A stretch of 40,929 nt of DNA, taken from Nitrospirota bacterium (GTDB taxonomy: Bacteria; Nitrospirota; Thermodesulfovibrionia; Thermodesulfovibrionales; UBA1546). Below the pieces are notes generated by a model. That model worked only from the letters and a program-made list of their open reading frames with translations, did no database searches and was not told where the DNA came from. Each line of letters starts with the position of its first letter. Within the stretch, counting starts at the first letter, position 1. Location of the stretch: assembly GCA_009773185.1 (NCBI GenBank), contig WPIF01000024.1, positions 1 to 40,929 of the forward strand. The letters are read 5' to 3'. A program made the translations under genes and the position numbers. This document shows, piece by piece, positions 14,731 to 40,277 of the stretch.

Positions 14731-16032
14731 TTATTCCCTCTTTACAGGCAGAGTTATGGTAAAGGTTGCCCCTTCTTCAGTCCGGCTTTCGACCTCAATA
14801 GTCCCGCCGTAACCAGTGATTGTTTCATAAGCTGCTGTAAGCCCCATGCCCGTGCCTTTACCCACATCTTTGGTTGTATAAAACGGCTCAAAGATTCTGC
14901 TCCTTATCTCTTCGGGTATTCCCCTGCCATTATCTGAAAACCTTATGACTATCCTGCTATTATTATAGCCCGTGCTTATGAAAAGTTTAAGGGTAAGTTT
15001 TTTTGCCTGTATTGCGTTAAGTATAATATTGAGGAATACCTGGCAGAGCAGGGCCGGGTTGCATTTGAATCCCGGCAAGGGATGATAATCTTTTATGATT
15101 TCAGTTCCTTCCGGTATTTCATGGGTAAGGACATTCAGGGTTCTGTCTATTTCTGTATTAATGTCAATAACAGCCTCTGTGCCCTCGTCAATATGTGAAA
15201 AACCCTTCAGGTCAGAAACTATCTTTTTTACCCTTTCAGCGCCTTCGAGGCTCTGTTTTATCAGTTCTTCTATGTCTGAAGATATAAAATCAAGCTTCAG
15301 TGCATCCCATTTCTGACGTGAGGATTTTCTAACGCTCTCGGGAACTCTGCTATCTCCGAGTGAGGCATTATAAAAGGCCACCATGTCCTTAAGTCTTGAT
15401 ACATATTTACTGAAGGTATTAATATTGCTGGATATAAAACCAAGCGGATTATTTATCTCGTGGGCCACGCCTGCAGCAAGCTGGCCGATGGCTGCCATTT
15501 TTTCCTGCTGCAGCATTCCTGCATGCGCCCGCCTCAGTTCCTCTGTCCGTTCCTGAACTTTCTTTTCCAGGTTTTCGGCAAGTTCACGGTACCTGGATTC
15601 TGATATGCTCAACTTTCTGTTTATCTCAAGAAGTTCCTCATAGGACTTATTGACCACTGTTGTATGCGTCTCAGTGGTCAGCATCCTCTTGAGGTTTGTA
15701 TGCAGAATCATGTGTATGGTATCTATAAGCAGTCCGGAGAGCCCCCTGAGATATTCCCTGTCTTTGCTGTCGCCGGCAACCTCAAGCTTCCCTACAGCCT
15801 CGCCTTCAAGATAGACAGGCAGTGTTTCTGTAAAAAAGGAACCTTCAGGATGACTGCCGCATGTCCACAGGTTCTTGTTTTGGGCGTCTGCTATTATTGC
15901 TGAAGAGGCCCCTGCCTTAACAGCCCCTTTAAGAATCGGCATCACCTCCGCATCTGTGATGATATCCTGAATTTTCTTCTCAGCGCCTACTATGTATTCA
16001 ATATTTTCGGCTCTCTTCTGTTTTTTCTCCAT
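14731..16032 (-). CDS. Soluble sensor histidine kinase with GAF-like N-terminus
   Basis: A 433-residue kinase without membrane helices. Residues about 25-105 look like a small GAF-type sensor. A coiled-coil (about 130-175) leads to the HisKA H box with His191 (AAGVAHEINNPLGF). The HATPase domain shows the N box (ILNAIQ), G1 (SDNGRGIP) and G2 (GKGTGMGL). It should phosphorylate one or more of the adjacent receivers. It ends two bases before the REC-ATPase gene, which has AGAGGGAA overlapping this stop region as its ribosome site. Confidence 0.9.
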   Translation of the reverse strand: MEKKQKRAENIEYIVGAEKKIQDIITDAEVMPILKGAVKAGASSAIIADAQNKNLWTCGSHPEGSFFTETLPVYLEGEAVGKLEVAGDSKDREYLRGLSGLLIDTIHMILHTNLKRMLTTETHTTVVNKSYEELLEINRKLSISESRYRELAENLEKKVQERTEELRRAHAGMLQQEKMAAIGQLAAGVAHEINNPLGFISSNINTFSKYVSRLKDMVAFYNASLGDSRVPESVRKSSRQKWDALKLDFISSDIEELIKQSLEGAERVKKIVSDLKGFSHIDEGTEAVIDINTEIDRTLNVLTHEIPEGTEIIKDYHPLPGFKCNPALLCQVFLNIILNAIQAKKLTLKLFISTGYNNSRIVIRFSDNGRGIPEEIRSRIFEPFYTTKDVGKGTGMGLTAAYETITGYGGTIEVESRTEEGATFTITLPVKRE

Positions 16033-18473: not shown

Positions 18474-20198
18474 TTAATCCACAACCGGTATTCTTAAGGT
18501 AAATGTTGTGCCTTCGCCCAGCTTGCTGTCCACTTTTATATCTCCATTATGTTTTTTTATTATATTGTAAGCAATGCTTAACCCGAGCCCGGTACCTTTA
18601 CCGAGTTCTTTAGTTGTAAAAAAAGGCTCGAATATATCGTTTAACTTATCCTGTGGTATTCCGCATCCGGTGTCTGATATGGATATATATATTGAATCAC
18701 CGTTATCCCAGGTCTTTACAGTGATTTCCCCCTGTTTTTCAATGGCATGGGCTGCGTTGACAAGCATGTTCATAAAAACCTGGTTAAGCTGGCCGAGATT
18801 GCATCTGGTCAATGGGATATTGCCGTACTCTTTCTTGAGAACAGCCTTATATTTAATCTCATTCCATACAATGTTTATGGTGCTGTCAAGGCCTGAGTTT
18901 ATATCAGCTAATCTGTGTTCTGTCTCATCCATTCTTGAAAAGCTTTTGAGGTCATTAACTATGCTCTTTACCCTTTGAGTGCCATCAAGAGATTCCGCTA
19001 TGAGCTGTTTAATATCCGGAATTATGTAATCAAGCTTAAGCTGCCTTTTCTTTTCATCTATCTCTTCGATAAGATTTTTTGTCCTGTCAAACTGTTCTAT
19101 TGCTTTTGACTGTGCGCCTATAAAATCAGTGAGCCTTGAAATATATTTATCGAGAGTCCCAAGATTGCTTGATATAAAACCTATCGGGTTGTTGATCTCA
19201 TGCGCAACGCCGGCAGCAAGCTGGCCTATGGATGCCATCTTTTCCTGCTGAAGAATCCTGGATTGAGCAGCCTTAAGCTCTGAATATGCGTCCTCCAGTT
19301 CTCTGTTCTTCTTTTCAAGCTCACTTGTCATCATTTTTATTTCAGTAGAATCATGTATCATTATCGCAGTGCCTGCGATTTCATTTTTAGACGAATCAAC
19401 AAAAGGATATGATGTGATTACGTACCACCTGTTGTTTGGCTTATGCAGATATTCGGTCCTCTGCCCATAAAATGCTCCTGCTTCAACCTCGCCAATGAAC
19501 AACAATTCTTTCCAGTCTTTGCCTAGGATATCTTCGTATGATTTTCCTATAAACTCCTTAAATGTTTTGTTGCACCTTTTTATTCTGCCATTATTGTCGG
19601 CAAGGATGACTATGTCGCCCACGCAGTCCATAGTCTTTTCCCATTCCTTTTTTATTGATTCAATTTTTTTAAAAAACAAGCTTAATTCTTCATGCTTGCG
19701 TGATAATTCCTCGTTGCTTCTCACCAGTTCTTCCATTGCCATTTTCCGGCCTGTTATGTCGCTGATCAAATAGGTGAAATATCTCCTGCCGTCCAACAGC
19801 CATGTTGAAAGAGAAAGCTCGGCAGGGAACTCTGTCCTGTCTTTTTTCAGTCCCGTAAATTCAACATATTCCCATATAATCTTAAAATTGTCCGCGGCAT
19901 AGGTTGTCTCGAGTGCTTCGAGATGGGTTTTTTGGTATTGCTCAGGCATAATGGAAGATATGGATACACCCTGCAGCTCATCAGGGGTATAACCGAATAT
20001 TTTCTGTACAGAACCGTTGCAAAAAATAATTACTTTTTCTGAATTGACCGTAATAATAGTGTCATGGACTGTTCTTATCATATTCGAAAAGATTTCAATT
20101 GCTGTATGAGGATTATCCTGCTTATGGCTGCCGCTGTTAGATTGCGGGGTATTGCCTGATTTAGCATTTTGCTGATTACCCATGTCTTTATTGTACAT
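18474..20198 (-). CDS. PAS-PAS sensor histidine kinase
   Basis: A 574-residue kinase and first gene of the signalling operon. No transmembrane helix or signal peptide is visible. PAS domain 1 spans about 38-150 and PAS domain 2 about 185-288, followed by a coiled coil (291-320), the H box with His333 (AAGVAHEINNPIGF), and a HATPase domain (N box NMLVNAAHAI, SDTGCGIP, GKGTGLGLSI). The core is closely similar to the operon's second kinase, suggesting duplication. Start either of two ATGs (20198 or 20183); neither has a good ribosome site. Confidence 0.9.
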   Translation of the reverse strand: MYNKDMGNQQNAKSGNTPQSNSGSHKQDNPHTAIEIFSNMIRTVHDTIITVNSEKVIIFCNGSVQKIFGYTPDELQGVSISSIMPEQYQKTHLEALETTYAADNFKIIWEYVEFTGLKKDRTEFPAELSLSTWLLDGRRYFTYLISDITGRKMAMEELVRSNEELSRKHEELSLFFKKIESIKKEWEKTMDCVGDIVILADNNGRIKRCNKTFKEFIGKSYEDILGKDWKELLFIGEVEAGAFYGQRTEYLHKPNNRWYVITSYPFVDSSKNEIAGTAIMIHDSTEIKMMTSELEKKNRELEDAYSELKAAQSRILQQEKMASIGQLAAGVAHEINNPIGFISSNLGTLDKYISRLTDFIGAQSKAIEQFDRTKNLIEEIDEKKRQLKLDYIIPDIKQLIAESLDGTQRVKSIVNDLKSFSRMDETEHRLADINSGLDSTINIVWNEIKYKAVLKKEYGNIPLTRCNLGQLNQVFMNMLVNAAHAIEKQGEITVKTWDNGDSIYISISDTGCGIPQDKLNDIFEPFFTTKELGKGTGLGLSIAYNIIKKHNGDIKVDSKLGEGTTFTLRIPVVD

Positions 20199-25227: not shown

Positions 25228-25314
25228 AAAGACGATAAAGGCAAACTATCTGTAAGGGTAGGGCGCAAAGTCACCGGTCCTTGAGTAGGGATAGCGGGAC
25301 TGCCGAAATAAAGT
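25228..25314 (+). ncRNA. GEMM-I cyclic-di-GMP riboswitch
   Basis: The stretch carries the hallmarks of the GEMM-I aptamer: GGCAAAC, a P2 stem (CTATC / GGTAG) capped by a GTAA GNRA loop, GGGCGCAAAGTC, the P3 CCGGTCC, and the conserved 3' half ATAGCGGGACTGCCGA. The base aligned with Vc2 G20 appears to be G (AAAGGCAAAC), which favours c-di-GMP over the 3',3'-cGAMP (A20) variant, though this alignment is by eye. A terminator follows directly. Confidence 0.9.
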
Positions 25315-25723: not shown

Positions 25724-26443
25724 TTATTCTCCTAAATATGCCTTTTTCACCTGCTCGTCATTAAGAAGTCCTTTTCCCAAACCATGCATTGTTATCTTGC
25801 CGCTTTCAAGTACATACCCCCTGTTAGAAAGATTTAAGGCTGCATGAGCATTCTGCTCCACAAGAAGAACAGTGATGCCGTCATGGTTTATCTCTTTTAT
25901 TGCCCTGAATATCCTGGTTACAATCAGTGGCGCAAGCCCCAGAGAAGGTTCATCAAGGAGAAGGAGCTTAGGGTCTGACATCAGGGCCCTTGATATAGCG
26001 AGCATCTGCTGCTCTCCTCCGCTCAATGTCCCTCCCATCTGTTTCCCCCTCTCTTTAAGAACAGGAAATAATTCATAAACCTTGTCAAATTGATTCTTAA
26101 ACTTTGAATTTTGAACTTTGAACTTTGTATTTTTAGTATATGCTCCCATCTCAAGGTTTTCCTTTACGGTCAGCCTCGGAAATATCCTTCTGCCTTCAGG
26201 CACATGGCTTATTCCCATCTCAACAATCCTGTGGGGAGGCACATCAGTAATATCTTCTCCGGTAAAAGATATGCTTCCGCTTCCGGGTCTCAGTATCCCT
26301 GATATTGTCATCAACGTTGTTGATTTGCCGGCTCCATTGTTTCCAATGAGGCAGACTATCTCACCCTGATCGATCTTCAGGGTAACCCCCTTTAACGCCT
26401 CTACAGGCCCGTAAAATGTATGTATGTTATTCAGTTCAAGCAT
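25724..26443 (-). CDS. livF: Branched-chain amino-acid ABC transporter ATPase LivF
   Basis: A 239-residue ABC ATPase with Walker A GNNGAGKST (34-42), signature LSGGEQQ, Walker B LLLLDEPS and the H-loop region. ATG 26443 is chosen since GGGAGAG precedes it and the protein then aligns with LivF; an upstream frame of 52 residues is encoded by the structured repeat and is not homologous. Between GAY and VYELFP it has 19 residues rather than about 12; the extra 7 correspond to three 7-mers of the array at 26101-26135. It partners LivG. Confidence 0.93.
   Translation of the reverse strand: MLELNNIHTFYGPVEALKGVTLKIDQGEIVCLIGNNGAGKSTTLMTISGILRPGSGSISFTGEDITDVPPHRIVEMGISHVPEGRRIFPRLTVKENLEMGAYTKNTKFKVQNSKFKNQFDKVYELFPVLKERGKQMGGTLSGGEQQMLAISRALMSDPKLLLLDEPSLGLAPLIVTRIFRAIKEINHDGITVLLVEQNAHAALNLSNRGYVLESGKITMHGLGKGLLNDEQVKKAYLGE
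26101..26135. repeat. Heptamer array in livF
   Basis: ACTTTGA, ATTTTGA, ACTTTGA, ACTTTGT, ATTTTTA in tandem inside the livF coding region. The encoded segment is Lys/Asn-rich (KNTKFKVQNSKFKNQ) and looks like a loop between conserved helices. Confidence 0.85.
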
Positions 26444-26457
26444 TTCCGCTCTCCCAT

Positions 26458-26594
26458 ATGCGGGAAGGGAATTGTCTTCGAGCGGTTTTATTTCCCCGAT
26501 ATTCCATAAAGTAAAGTAATCTGAAAAATAAGAGAGGGGAAATGCCTCGGAGCGCAGCGAGAAAGAGCGAGAAGATTGTTCCCTTCCACCGCAT
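26458..26594. repeat. Structured dispersed element, copy A (livG-livF spacer)
   Basis: The spacer holds an outer stem: ATGCG (26458-26462) with CGCAT (26590-26594), then GGAAGGGAA through CTTC (26463-26479) with GAAG through TTCCCTTCC (26571-26587), one mismatch. An inner stem pairs ATTTCCCC (26490-26497) with GGGGAAAT (26536-26543). Conserved single-strand blocks GAGCGGTTTT and CCTCGGAGCG-AGCGAGAA-GAGCGAGAA are shared with copy B. It starts immediately after the livG stop and ends just before the livF ribosome site. Confidence 0.8.
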
Positions 26595-26595
26595 G

Positions 26596-27357
26596 TCAAT
26601 GTTCTTTTCCAAGATATGCCTCGATTACCAGCGGATTTTTTCTTATCTCTCCCGGAGTCCCCTCTGCAATCCTGACACCATGGTCCAGTACAACTATATT
26701 TTCCGAAATACCCATGACAACTTTCATGTCATGCTCTATCAGAATGATTGTCTTTCCGAGTTCCTGAAGCTTCTTTATAAGTTCCATCATCTCTGATGTC
26801 TCCTGAGGGTTCATGCCTGCTGTTGGTTCGTCAAGCAGCATAAGCCGCGGCTCCGTTGCAATTGCCCTTGCAATCTCAAGCCTTTTCTGGCTTCCATAAG
26901 GGAGATTCCAGGAAAGCGTTTCAGCAAAGTCCTCCAGCCCTACGAGTTCGAGATATTCCAGGGCCTTTTCCTCTATTATTTTCTCCTCTTTCTTAAATGC
27001 ATTCCCCCTTAATATCGAGGCGAAAAGTCCGGCTCCTGTTCTGCAGTGCTGGGACACCATTATATTCTCAAAAACGCTCATCTCTTTAAAAAGCCTGATA
27101 TTCTGGAAGGTCCTTGCAATGCCAAGTTTTACAATACTGCTTGGCCGGAAACCTGTAATCTCTGTGTCGAGGAAACTTACCCTGCCCTTTGTAGGTTGTG
27201 TTATTCCGGTAAGGCAGTTAAAGAGTGTGGTCTTTCCTGCGCCATTCGGCCCTATAATGCTCGTTATAGAACCTTCCATGACCCTGAACCTGACCTCTTC
27301 GATCGCCCTGATGCCGCCAAAATGTTTGGTAAGGTCTCTAACTTCTAAAAGATACAC
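26596..27357 (-). CDS. livG: Branched-chain amino-acid ABC transporter ATPase LivG
   Basis: A 253-residue ABC ATPase: Walker A GPNGAGKTT (36-44), a signature region LPYGSQKRLEIARA, Walker B LMLLDEPTAG, and the long C-terminal extension typical of LivG. GTG 27357 is preceded by GGGAGGG and overlaps the livM stop by 20 bases, consistent with coupled translation. It forms the heterodimer with LivF. Confidence 0.95.
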   Translation of the reverse strand: MYLLEVRDLTKHFGGIRAIEEVRFRVMEGSITSIIGPNGAGKTTLFNCLTGITQPTKGRVSFLDTEITGFRPSSIVKLGIARTFQNIRLFKEMSVFENIMVSQHCRTGAGLFASILRGNAFKKEEKIIEEKALEYLELVGLEDFAETLSWNLPYGSQKRLEIARAIATEPRLMLLDEPTAGMNPQETSEMMELIKKLQELGKTIILIEHDMKVVMGISENIVVLDHGVRIAEGTPGEIRKNPLVIEAYLGKEH

Positions 27358-28588
27358 CCTTCCCTCCCATCAGATATCTGCTCTCCCCGGCGAGCCGACT
27401 GAGGCGCCCGGGACGGAAAAGGCCCTGAGGCCTGAATATCATAAGCAGAACAAGGCCGCTCCCAAGTGCAAGCATCCTGTAAAGCTGTATCTCTCTTAAC
27501 ATCTCCGGCAGTATCACAAGTATGACTGCACCCAGGATAACGCCCGGTATGCTTCCCAGGCCGCCCAGAATCACCATGCTGAGTATCAGCACGGATTCCA
27601 TAAATGTAAAGCTCTCAGGAGATACAAACTGCATCTTGGCTGCAAATAAAGCGCCGGCAGCCCCGGCCCAGAAAGCGCCAAATGCAAATGCATATAATTT
27701 ATACGCGGTCGTGTTTATGCCTATTGAAGAAGATGCAATCTCGTCTTCCCTTATTGCAACCCATGCTCTTCCGGTTCTCGATTTATAAACCCTTCTGACC
27801 ATAAATACTGTCAGCGCCACAAATGCCAGGATAAAATAATAATAGTAACTTAATCCTCCGAGGGGCGTAGCAAATAAATAAGGGGGTTCTATACCTCCTA
27901 TTCCATTAGGGCCCTTTGTCACAGAATCCCAGTTGTTAAGCACAAGGCGCACTATCTCTCCAAACCCGAGGGTGACTATGGCAAGATAATCTCCTTTAAG
28001 CCTTAACGCCGGGACTGCAAGCAGGAACCCTGAAAAACTGGCAAGCACGACTGACAGAGGAAGGGCTGACCAGAACCCCAAGCCCATTTTTGTATTAAGC
28101 AACGCATAAGAATAAGCGCCTATTGCATAAAAGGCAACAAACCCGAGATTTAATAATCCTGCAAAGCCGACAACAACATTAAGCCCCTGCGCCAATATTA
28201 CATAGATGCCCGCAAGTATCAGCACGTCAATAAAATAATCTTTGGCAAAAAAGGGGACAGAAAGAATAAAACCAAGTAAAAGCAAATAAGCAACAAACCG
28301 GGGAGTTTTAGGCCTTGCATACACGGTTTCCAGGCCGCTGCTTACAGATTGTCTTATGACATTGAACTTTTCCGTCAGTGTTTTTGCATAACCAGACAGC
28401 GCTCTAAAAATGAATAGTAATATTGAGAGCGTTACAAAAAGGATTAATGCATCCTTAATTCCCCTGAAAGGTAGAAACAGCAGGGCAAGCCATAATGCAA
28501 TTATTACCGGCCTTAAGACAAACCCCAATCTTTTTTTATCCGTATCCTTTGCTCTCTGCTCTTTGCTCTCTGCTCTTTGTTCTCTCAT
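27338..28588 (-). CDS. livM: Branched-chain amino-acid ABC transporter permease LivM
   Basis: A 416-residue permease with about ten helices, including the conserved GLNVVVGFAGLLNLGFVAFYAIG segment and GADG-type cytoplasmic loop. The first 18 residues (MREQRAESKEQRAKDTDK) are coded by a CAGAGAG/CAAAGAG heptamer array (28548-28586) directly after the ATG, giving a hydrophilic leader unlike usual LivM N-termini. The gene lies 3 bases after livH. Confidence 0.94.
   Translation of the reverse strand: MREQRAESKEQRAKDTDKKRLGFVLRPVIIALWLALLFLPFRGIKDALILFVTLSILLFIFRALSGYAKTLTEKFNVIRQSVSSGLETVYARPKTPRFVAYLLLLGFILSVPFFAKDYFIDVLILAGIYVILAQGLNVVVGFAGLLNLGFVAFYAIGAYSYALLNTKMGLGFWSALPLSVVLASFSGFLLAVPALRLKGDYLAIVTLGFGEIVRLVLNNWDSVTKGPNGIGGIEPPYLFATPLGGLSYYYYFILAFVALTVFMVRRVYKSRTGRAWVAIREDEIASSSIGINTTAYKLYAFAFGAFWAGAAGALFAAKMQFVSPESFTFMESVLILSMVILGGLGSIPGVILGAVILVILPEMLREIQLYRMLALGSGLVLLMIFRPQGLFRPGRLSRLAGESRYLMGGKGVSFRS
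28548..28586. repeat. Heptamer array at the 5' end of livM
   Basis: TTTGCTC, TCTGCTC, TTTGCTC, TCTGCTC, TTTGTTC on the + strand, covering almost the first 12 codons of livM. The same unit (CAGAGAG/CAAAGAG on the coding strand) recurs in larC at 39804-39838. Confidence 0.85.
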
Positions 28589-38091: not shown

Positions 38092-38877
38092 ATGATAGTA
38101 ATAGCAGAGAATCTTCATACAAGAAACAAGAAATACATGGAGGCTGTAAAGAAAAAGGACTCTAAGGCCATATCCCGGCTTTCCAAAGAGCTTGCTGATG
38201 CAGGCGCAGAGGTTATTAATGTGCAGTGCTCTCTTGACGGAAGCGGCGATGCAGAAGCGCTGCCCATGGTTGTAGAGGCTATAGTGAAGGCAACAGGGCT
38301 TACTATATCGCTTGATTCAAGAAATATCGAGGCCTTAAAAAAGGCTATTCCATTGTGTAATAAACCGCCGCTGATAAATTATCTTTCTGCCACTGAGCCT
38401 TCTGACCGCAAAAAATTGCTGTCTTTAGTTGCGGATAAAAAAACAAACCTTGTTCTCAGGGCTTCAAAAAATGTGGTCCCTTCATCCCTCGAGGCAAAAC
38501 TGCAGATACTCGGAGACTTGCTGGAAGAAGCCAATGCCGCTGATATCCCGAATGAAAGGCTGTTCGCTGACCCTTCTGTTGTTCATATCGGGAAAGGCAT
38601 GGGGCAGGACCATCTGATAAACTCTCACGATTGTATTCGCGCCTTGACAGAAATGGTTGAACCGCCGATAAATACAATTGCATGGATATCTAACGTCTCA
38701 GCAGGCATGCCCGGGAAATTACAGCCGGGGATGAATTCTGTATTCCTGAGTTATCTTGCAGGAGCAGGCCTTGATGCTGCCATGGTTGATGTGCTGAACC
38801 CTGAGATAAGAAAAACCATATATATGATAAAATCATTCAGGGATGAGGTTGTGTTTTCACCGGCAGATATATCTTAA
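38092..38877 (+). CDS. Pterin-binding methyltransferase (AcsE/MtrH-like, DHPS fold)
   Basis: A 261-residue TIM-barrel protein. IAENLHTRNKKYMEAV at the start, LADAGAEVINVQCSL, SLDSRNIEALKKA and NERLFADPSV match the pterin-binding fold used by methyl-THF:corrinoid protein methyltransferases. A strong AAGGAGGG precedes the ATG. The metVF genes are transcribed divergently across 144 bases, so it most likely transfers the methyl of 5-methyl-THF to a corrinoid protein as in the acetyl-CoA pathway. It is divergent in sequence from well-studied AcsE, and dihydropteroate synthase is excluded by lack of the pABA-binding features. Confidence 0.85.
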   Translation: MIVIAENLHTRNKKYMEAVKKKDSKAISRLSKELADAGAEVINVQCSLDGSGDAEALPMVVEAIVKATGLTISLDSRNIEALKKAIPLCNKPPLINYLSATEPSDRKKLLSLVADKKTNLVLRASKNVVPSSLEAKLQILGDLLEEANAADIPNERLFADPSVVHIGKGMGQDHLINSHDCIRALTEMVEPPINTIAWISNVSAGMPGKLQPGMNSVFLSYLAGAGLDAAMVDVLNPEIRKTIYMIKSFRDEVVFSPADIS

Positions 38878-38891
38878 TTATGATTATAACA

Positions 38892-39014
38892 GGAGATAGG
38901 ATATGGTATTTGAGCGGTTTTTTTTGCCGATAGTCAATAACGTTTATTTAAAAATAAAGAGGCAAAATCCTCGGAGCGGAGCGAGAATGAGCGAGAATAT
39001 TATATCCTATCTCT
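38892..39014. repeat. Structured dispersed element, copy B (upstream of larC)
   Basis: A 20-bp arm at 38892-38911 pairs with 38995-39014 with only G-U wobbles (core GAGATAGGATAT / ATATCCTATCTC). The inner stem TTTTGCC (38922-38928) pairs with GGCAAAA (38961-38967). Blocks GAGCGGTTTT (38912 on) and CCTCGGAGCG-AGCGAGAA-GAGCGAGAA are the same as in copy A, but both stems differ in sequence and are still complementary. It fills nearly all the spacer before larC. Confidence 0.8.
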
Positions 39015-39038
39015 CTCTGTTTCAAAGGAAACTTTAAT

Positions 39039-40277
39039 TTGAAAACAGCCTACTTTGACTGCTCGTCAGGAATTAGCGGCGACATGTGCCTCGGCGCGCT
39101 CGTTGATGCAGGCGTCCCTGTAAAAAAATTAGAGCAGGAACTCGGAAAGATTCCAATAAAGGGCTATAAGCTCAGAGCCAGAAAGGTCAAACGCGCAGGC
39201 TTCAGGGCGACAAAGGTGGATGTTTTACAGCTCTCAGCTCTCAGCTCTCAGCTCTCAGCTAAAAAATGGAAAGACATTGAAAAGATAATCAAAACATCCA
39301 GACTCTCCGACAATATCAAACAAAAAGGCCTCAAAATCTTCAGAAAGCTTTTCGAGGCAGAGGCAAAGGTGCATGGCGAGCGCTTTGATAAGATCCATCT
39401 GCATGAACTTGGCGCTGTTGACTGCATCGTTGATATCATGGGCACTCTCATCTGTCTCAATATCCTCGCCATAGAGAAAGTCTATTCATCTCCTGTAAAC
39501 CTCGGCAGCGGCTTTGTTAAAACAGAGCATGGCGTCCTGCCTGTGCCCGCGCCTGCAACAGCGGAAGTCCTCAGAAGTCAGAAGTCAGTCTCCTTCGGCG
39601 ACTCGCTGGGGCGAGAAGTCAGAAGTCAGATTTATTCTGACGGAACAAATTTTGAGCTGACAACCCCAACAGGCGCTGTGATAATAAGAGAGACAGCATC
39701 CGGTTTTGGAAATATGCCGGGTATGTCTGTCAAAAAGATTGGCATAGGAGCCGGAGGCAGGGATTTTAAGGGCAAGGCAAATGTGCTGAGAATTTTTGTC
39801 GGAGAGAGCAGAGAGCAGAGAGCAGAGAGCAAAGAGCAAACAATCACAGTCATCGAGACAAATATTGATGACATGAACCCGCAGGTCTATGAATATGTGA
39901 TGGAGAGGTTATTCAGAGCAGGCGCGCTTGATGTTTTTCTCACACAGGTGATAATGAAAAAAGGAAGGCCGGGGATAAAACTTTCAGTGCTCTGCAATGA
40001 TTCAGATAAAGAGAACCTGATGAATATCATCTTTGAGGAAACAACAACAATAGGGCTCAGGTTTTATTCTGCTGGCAGAAAGACATTGGACAGAGAGATA
40101 AAAAACCTCAATACAAAATTCGGAAAAATAAACCTCAAGCTCTCAAAACTCGGGGACAAGACAGTAAGGATAACGCCTGAATATGAAGACTGTAAAAGAC
40201 TTGCCAAAAAACTTAACTTGCCGCTGCTTGAAGTAATAAAAAGCGTATCATCGGCGTACAGTAAACCCAGTTTATAA
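39039..40277 (+). CDS. larC: Nickel-pincer cofactor biosynthesis protein LarC
   Basis: A 412-residue single-chain LarC that inserts nickel into the pincer cofactor of lactate racemase-type enzymes. Family elements: DCSSGISGDMCLGALVDAG, HLHELGAVDCIVDIMG, PVPAPATAEVLR, ELTTPTGA and NIDDMNPQVYEYVMERLF. It starts at TTG 39039 after AAGGAAA. In Lactiplantibacillus larC1/larC2 are joined by frameshift; here one frame covers both. Three heptamer arrays lie in frame within the gene. No larA, larB or larE is in the window. Confidence 0.93.
   Translation: MKTAYFDCSSGISGDMCLGALVDAGVPVKKLEQELGKIPIKGYKLRARKVKRAGFRATKVDVLQLSALSSQLSAKKWKDIEKIIKTSRLSDNIKQKGLKIFRKLFEAEAKVHGERFDKIHLHELGAVDCIVDIMGTLICLNILAIEKVYSSPVNLGSGFVKTEHGVLPVPAPATAEVLRSQKSVSFGDSLGREVRSQIYSDGTNFELTTPTGAVIIRETASGFGNMPGMSVKKIGIGAGGRDFKGKANVLRIFVGESREQRAESKEQTITVIETNIDDMNPQVYEYVMERLFRAGALDVFLTQVIMKKGRPGIKLSVLCNDSDKENLMNIIFEETTTIGLRFYSAGRKTLDREIKNLNTKFGKINLKLSKLGDKTVRITPEYEDCKRLAKKLNLPLLEVIKSVSSAYSKPSL
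39228..39260. repeat. Heptamer array 1 in larC
   Basis: Four and a half copies of CAGCTCT, coding QLSALSSQLSA between two conserved LarC segments. Confidence 0.9.
39564..39637. repeat. Heptamer array 2 in larC, with an embedded palindrome
   Basis: CAGAAGT repeats at 39572-39585 and again at about 39614-39630, separated by a block with CTCGCTGGGGCGAG, a short hairpin. Encodes a Ser/Arg/Gln-rich insertion immediately after PVPAPATAEVLR. Confidence 0.8.
39804..39838. repeat. Heptamer array 3 in larC
   Basis: Four GAGAGCA units and one AAGAGCA; encodes a Glu/Arg/Gln-rich linker (SREQRAESKEQ) between the N-terminal and C-terminal domains. The unit equals that at the livM start. Confidence 0.9.

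Follow-up and report, generated by a model that had tools for sequence, protein, structure and literature searches.

Do the two copies of a palindromic element in this stretch of DNA share a fold that is kept while the letters of its stems change, and if so, on which strand and in which molecule would that fold act? By the window we mean the whole stretch analysed, 40,929 nt of contig WPIF01000024.1 from the Nitrospirota bacterium assembly GCA_009773185.1, in which copies A and B each lie between two neighboring genes (Table 1). Bacteria commonly carry small palindromic repeats, and most of those known are near-fixed in sequence and confined to one genus or family.

A three-way junction with conserved junction letters

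The element is ~120–150 bp long (the patch at copy B is 125 bases) and folds as a three-way junction on one defined strand, with P1 formed by the two outer arms and P2 and P3 as hairpins. Its parts follow in the order P1 left arm, GAGCGG, a short T-rich linker, P2 hairpin, CCTCGGAG, P3 hairpin, CGAGAATGAGCGA, and P1 right arm. Conservation is limited to the junction letters; the P1 arms and the P2 and P3 hairpins are variable. The arms are terminal inverted repeats of 18–22 bp that vary by site and fall into two subfamilies (consensuses AGACAGGRYATAGTATTT and ACAGGAGGGAATTGTCTTT), both of them variable, with A and B one ordinary member of each rather than exceptions to an invariant arm. Tips of the form GC-GNA-GC would fit stable DNA hairpins.

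The predicted RNA fold of the + strand has z = −4.1 for copy B and z = −4.9 for copy A, with 0/200 shuffles as good in either case, and a stable RNA fold is predicted for both strands. The inner stem is ATTTCCCC/GGGGAAAT in copy A and TTTTGCC/GGCAAAA in copy B. A preliminary description of the locus had the loops kept between the two copies; the P2 loop is not, and what they have in common instead is the junction strands GAGCGG, CCTCGGAG, and CGAGAA(T/A)GAGCGA.

Table 1. Positions of the element copies, their parts, and the adjoining genes in the window
Feature	Position	Strand	Evidence
Copy B, whole element	38890..39018	+	Covariance model R1 match, 131.4 bits
Copy B P1 left arm GAGATAGGATATGGTATTT, arm subfamily I	38893..38911	+	Sequence, pair counts, subfamilies
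Copy B junction strand GAGCGG	38912..38917	+	Conserved in 31-copy alignment
Copy B P2 hairpin TTTTGCC/GGCAAAA, variable loop	38922..38967	+	31-copy alignment pair counts
Copy B inner stem, TTTTGCC paired with GGCAAAA	38922–38928 with 38961–38967
Copy B conserved strand CCTCGGAG, base of P3	38969..38976	+	31-copy alignment, other phyla
Copy B P3 tip GC-GGA-GC	38976..38982	+	Other copies have longer, exchangeable hairpins there
Copy B conserved strand CGAGAATGAGCGA	38982..38994	+	31-copy alignment, contig scan, other phyla
Copy B P1 right arm GAATATTATATCCTATCTC, pairs with GAGATAGGATATGGTATTT	38995..39013	+	Sequence, pair counts
Copy A, whole element, arm subfamily II	26458..26594	+	Covariance model match, 105.9 bits
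Copy A P1, GCGGGAAGGGAATTGTCTTC paired with GAAGATTGTTCCCTTCCACCGC	26460–26479 with 26571–26592
Gene upstream of copy B: pterin-binding methyltransferase (AcsE-like)	38092..38877	+	Pfam Pterin_bind 1.8e-10
Gene downstream of copy B: LarC nickel insertion protein	39039..40277	+	Pfam Ni_insertion 5.4e-145
Gene upstream of copy A: LivG-like ABC ATPase	26596..27357	−	Pfam ABC_tran, BCA_ABC_TP_C
Gene downstream of copy A: LivF-like ABC ATPase	25724..26443	−	Pfam ABC_tran

Copy number and taxonomic spread

We used 31 copies to build a covariance model (R1), which matches at least 112 copies in the source genome (2.79 Mb, 44 contigs), where plain BLAST gave at least 40, and covariance model searches of three other genomes of the genus gave 56, 91, and 21 copies. 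The element was found in all 16 genomes searched of the taxonomic family, each with two or more copies. In a sample of the phylum searched with stricter filters, 19 of 148 genomes carry it; all belong to the same order, within which its occurrence is patchy.

A scan of genome contigs for CCTCGGAG-gap-CGAGAATGAGCGA returned at least 113 stretches. The taxa among the listed matches were Nitrospirota, Latescibacterota, Gemmatimonadetes, Desulfobacterales, Desulfobulbaceae, Desulfurivibrio, and Parcubacteria records, so that the spread outside Nitrospirota takes in Latescibacterota, Gemmatimonadota, Desulfobacterota, and Patescibacteria records. Carriers are mostly metagenome-assembled genomes (MAGs), for which single taxon assignments may be wrong, but they include a RefSeq record of Desulfurivibrio sp. 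(L174). Of the listed scan matches that were tested, nearly all are matched by model R1. In copies from other phyla the three stems differ in sequence yet pair, and the junction letters are kept, GAGCGG appearing as N-N-GCGG. Collections of viral contigs, plasmids, and phages, tested as carriers, had no match to the element. At two loci of a Desulfobacterales MAG (MNYK01; L135 and L188) the element is embedded in a larger repeat with GTAACTATCCAGC/GCTGGATAGTTAC at its flanks; at L188 the left side repeats the right side in inverted form, possibly because of template switching or as an artefact of assembly.

Compensatory change in the stems

The preliminary description saw both strands of two stems change between A and B with pairing kept, and called this proof of a selected fold. 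Two copies by themselves are insufficient to establish covariation; the 31-copy alignment does so. In it, 22/22 P1 pairs have changed on both sides, 25 of 33 pairs vary on both sides, and 99.5% of P2 cells are paired. Two-sided cells number 127, against 38.8 in shuffles, and 90.8% of cells are paired (79.6% in shuffles), a signal that collapses when the partners are slid by 1–3 columns.

Orthologous copies, matched by their flanks, gave 52 same-orientation pairs, 49 of them usable. Changes were two-sided at 48 of 735 P1 positions, where independent change would yield ~12, and 44 of these 48 led from one Watson–Crick pair to another; since the ortholog pairs overlap and some P1 wobbles are subfamily features, these counts overstate independence. 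Similar cores also occur with new but matching arms (L048/L045 and L293/L140). The element retains its shape and not its sequence, and compensated stem change is visible directly at orthologous sites. The two-sided change of the A and B stems is confirmed, and sequence comparison supports a fold kept by compensatory change; the word proof was too strong, because conversion between the arms also yields two-sided changes.

Mismatches are distributed unevenly. One-sided changes between orthologs, from Watson–Crick to another pair or back, involve G.T in 63 cases, A.C in 12, and other mismatches in 12. On the top strand of the element the G.T:A.C ratio is 61:10 in the 31-copy alignment, and within the family it is 22:2 for sense, 100:11 for antisense, and 23:3 for convergent copies, and 27:11 for P2; the copy parser favored wobble over A.C, a slight bias in these four within-family ratios, and was not used for the alignment counts (127 against 38.8, and 61:10). 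As some wobble positions in P1 are features of a subfamily, the G.T excess reflects few independent events.

Exchange and inversion of cores

The arms are mostly retained at a locus, and P2 loops and P3 tips are exchanged. Copy A and its ortholog in genome G002 (L314) have arms and P2 stem in common and differ in the P2 loop, and P2 loops were likewise exchanged at L003, L005, and L006. At one orthologous pair (L274/L212; 131 bp, 97.7%) the core lies in inverse orientation between collinear flanks, an inversion in place. In the eight other inverted ortholog pairs the cores differ, and separate insertions may account for them.

Such exchange bears on a reading without any selection on the fold, in which the arms correct each other by template switching or inverted-repeat recombination and two-sided changes arise by conversion. 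The inversion at L274/L212 implies arm exchange, exchange of cores and tips is common, and indels in the arms are compensated too (L017 and L276), all as this reading would have it. It gives no reason, however, for a G.T preference on one strand, as found in both orthologs (63:12) and alignment (61:10). The junction letters, conserved across phyla although every stem differs, also speak against it. Arm-to-arm conversion could account for part of the compensation; as the only cause it is unlikely, because the excess of G.T over A.C lies on one strand, and we consider the reading without fold selection quite improbable.

The P2 loop often holds a nested palindrome (ACAACCCCCTNAGTCCCCCTTTGTTAAGGGGGATTAAGGGGGTTGTG or CCACCCCTCTNTGTCCCCCCTTACCAAGGGGGGAATT and following letters; L072, L065, L087, L314, and L285). 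CCCCCTTTGTTAAGGGGGATT has 14 exact sites in genome G001, ~5 of them within the element, so that one repeat nests in the hairpin loop of the other.

Insertion polymorphism and the origin of the arms

Insertions are polymorphic, with copies present at sites that are empty in the orthologous loci of sister species. The empty sites (L004, L010, L011, L014, L018, L021, L025, and others) contain neither arm, evident deletion remnants aside. The best-bounded insertion is at L025, where GATA[GACAGG...CCTGTC]TAAAAT faces the empty site GAATATAAAAAT in G001. By eye, target overlap at several filled/empty pairs is 1–8 nt and not constant in length, and short target repeats flank several insertions (CATTAA, CTCCTCC, TATTTCC, GCT, and CTGC); many filled sites have extra flanking bases that the insertion reading leaves unexplained. 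The second and third flank searches covered 4,389 of 4,840 and 2,887 of 4,760 letters, respectively, with the last listed sites left out. The element had been described as unlike a recently moved miniature inverted-repeat transposable element (MITE), a view that fails on its polymorphic sites, shared arm subfamily consensuses, and high copy number.

Partial copies occur as well: The L263 site in G001 has the P1 hairpin only, the L271 site in G002 the right arm only, and the L008 site in G001 half an element. We take these as decay products. The first two, together with an arm that continues into flanking AAACAG at G002 locus L342 and with identical 83-nt cores between different arms at L011 and L023, could also be read in favor of a core that brings no arms and takes those of the target, or inserts into ready-made hairpins, as the earlier suggestion of target-templated arms would have it. 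This idea was not supported and we regard it as very improbable: The empty sites listed above are armless, the arms fall into two subfamilies, and arms without a core match the family arm consensus, so that a deletion remnant is the simpler explanation. L011 and L023 are separated by 1.4 kb and have inverse order; core conversion accounts for them better, and we dropped them as proof of new arms upon insertion.

In G001 the copy B site is occupied by the element, with arms that are almost unchanged. In G002 (L287, 589–799), unrelated palindromic repeats (CCCCTCCTATTTTAGGAGGGG and CCCCTCCTTAACTAAGGAGGGG) replace it; the intergenic gap at this site attracts or tolerates several kinds of repeat.

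Gene context and the folded strand

Copies A and B differ in orientation relative to their genes, as had been noted: Copy B lies sense between two + strand genes, and copy A antisense between two − strand ABC-ATPase genes. The stop codon of the LivG-like gene directly adjoins the arm of copy A. We placed the start of the LivF-like gene, from its sequence, at an ATG just outside copy A; a longer open reading frame (ORF), to 26599, would cross the element. Upstream of the copy A operon region there is a c-di-GMP-I-GGC riboswitch (25231–25308, + strand, 66.1 bits).

Among Nitrospirota copies between co-directional genes, 82 are antisense and 14 sense, and a further 20 lie between convergent and 7 between divergent genes; these counts cover loci with callable close neighbors, use simple ORF choices as gene calls, and are partly dependent, as some loci overlap or are orthologs. 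The core lies at a median of 31 nt after the stop codon and 40 nt ahead of the following start, a tight spacing that follows if insertion is tolerated only between a stop codon and a ribosome-binding site. Replication direction is probably not the cause of the orientation bias, as both orientations are found within single contigs. For this bias to arise, either sense copies must be selected against or insertion must itself favor one orientation, and selection is the likelier of the two, we infer, because the core can flip in place.

The bias of pairing toward one strand offers a handle on whether a fold acts in DNA or in RNA, a matter rarely testable from sequence. One reading is an mRNA element of the type of the enterobacterial repeat ERIC, co-transcribed in operons, whose RNA fold would govern how the messages of neighboring genes are processed or how stable they are, with host-level selection keeping the stems. 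It draws on the position of most copies between co-directional genes at the spacing given above, on the stable RNA fold of both strands, and on the orientation-dependent effect of ERIC on mRNA stability in Yersinia (PMC2229807). It is at odds with the strand that tolerates G.U, which runs antisense to the message in 82 of the 96 operonic copies, with a wobble bias that is the same in sense copies, and with the free loss of sites in sister species; we think it unlikely. We favor a role of the folded top strand at the level of DNA, because in most operonic copies the G.T strand is not that of the mRNA and the bias is independent of orientation, although the choice of DNA over RNA draws on strand bias and orientation only.

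We therefore give roughly even chances to a nonautonomous palindromic repeat, similar to MITEs, ERIC, and the Yersinia palindrome YPAL, in which a folded single strand is selected, probably as single-stranded DNA. Selection would act on the folded DNA strand while it is single-stranded during replication or transfer, and a trans-acting recombinase or transposase may recognize the fold by its shape and junction letters. Most insertions that persist would be those in the short gap separating a stop codon from the ribosome-binding site that follows, where the sense orientation would be selected against. A bolder version, which we put forward only tentatively, has cross-phylum mobile palindromes whose single folded DNA strand is recognized and moved by an enzyme not yet described, which would read the letters of the three-way junction, with stems free to change and tips serving as swappable cassettes. 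As to a partner protein, no element lay within 1.5 kb of 30 Y1 (RAYT) transposase genes in these genomes, and a search for a protein gene shared beside the element across the contigs of many genomes linked no cluster to it, with Y1 loci mixed in. The patchy distribution among the sampled genomes of the phylum offers a route to the enzyme through co-occurrence.

Comparison with known repeats

At curated thresholds, no Rfam family matched the element in the window or at 16 loci of other lineages, and under relaxed settings copy B had a single match, at chance level and well short of its threshold. The text of the motif turned up in no relevant paper, and no description of the element for Nitrospirota was found.

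REP elements are palindromic, intergenic, high-copy repeats of 20–40 bp that carry a GTAG or CGTC tag, and their RAYTs act on folded single-stranded DNA. The element shares the first three properties, but its length of 120–150 bp and the lack of copies near the 30 Y1 loci set it apart from this class. Integron attC sites are imperfect palindromes of variable sequence that are thought to be read on one folded DNA strand; they conserve the outer ends and vary inside, whereas the element conserves the inner junction and varies in its outer arms.

Like MITEs, the element is short, lacks a transposase gene, has many dispersed copies, and ends in terminal inverted repeats (P1). Correia/NEMIS and QMITE2 of Coxiella are gene-free, high-copy repeats with terminal inverted repeats of ~20–29 bp, and bacterial MITEs that form stem-loops are often found in 3′ untranslated regions (PMC10969869). 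The arms of the element differ from theirs in having no fixed sequence, and a check that covered Y1 transposases gave no parent insertion sequence.

Likeness to ERIC (IRU/RU-1) lies in an imperfect, non-coding palindrome of ~127 bp, dispersed, found in operons, and at sites variable among species, and an E. coli ERIC copy has TGAGCGA beside a hairpin. ERIC arms, however, are short 7-bp terminal inverted repeats with TA ends (PMC2229807), whereas those of the element measure 18–22 bp and covary from site to site. On the E. coli ERIC locus with filters off, the best score of model R1 was 7.2 bits, for a simple hairpin only; with no match beyond chance level, we set a relationship aside. The ERIC locus itself (L326, 190–320) consists of small hairpins in series, their tips resembling CATGGATG, and includes GGGGTGAGCGA. 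Copies of the element from other phyla have similar hairpin tips (CAGGATG and CCAGGGATGG), which may reflect convergence or a distant link.

YPAL (RU-2) is given in PMC2229807 as an intergenic palindrome of ~168 bp without TA ends, with known empty and filled sites and uneven target duplications of 3–26 bp. By description rather than by sequence, the element resembles it in being palindromic and intergenic, in its empty and filled sites, and in putative target duplications of uneven length. YPAL is reported from Yersinia and Erwinia, and covarying arms, a flip in place, and cross-phylum spread are not among the features described for it in the material consulted. The element works like ERIC, YPAL, and other bacterial repeats similar to MITEs, and differs from them in its covarying arms, exchangeable hairpins, inversion in place, and range of several phyla.

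Other features of the window

Short tandem runs of the CTCTGCTCTTTG and CAGCTCTCAG type occur at 28547–28586, 39235–39260, and 39802–39840, in or beside coding sequence, including the interior of larC. Finally, a direct repeat of 125 nt, 79% identical, is found at 15392–15516 and 19132–19256, 3.7 kb apart.
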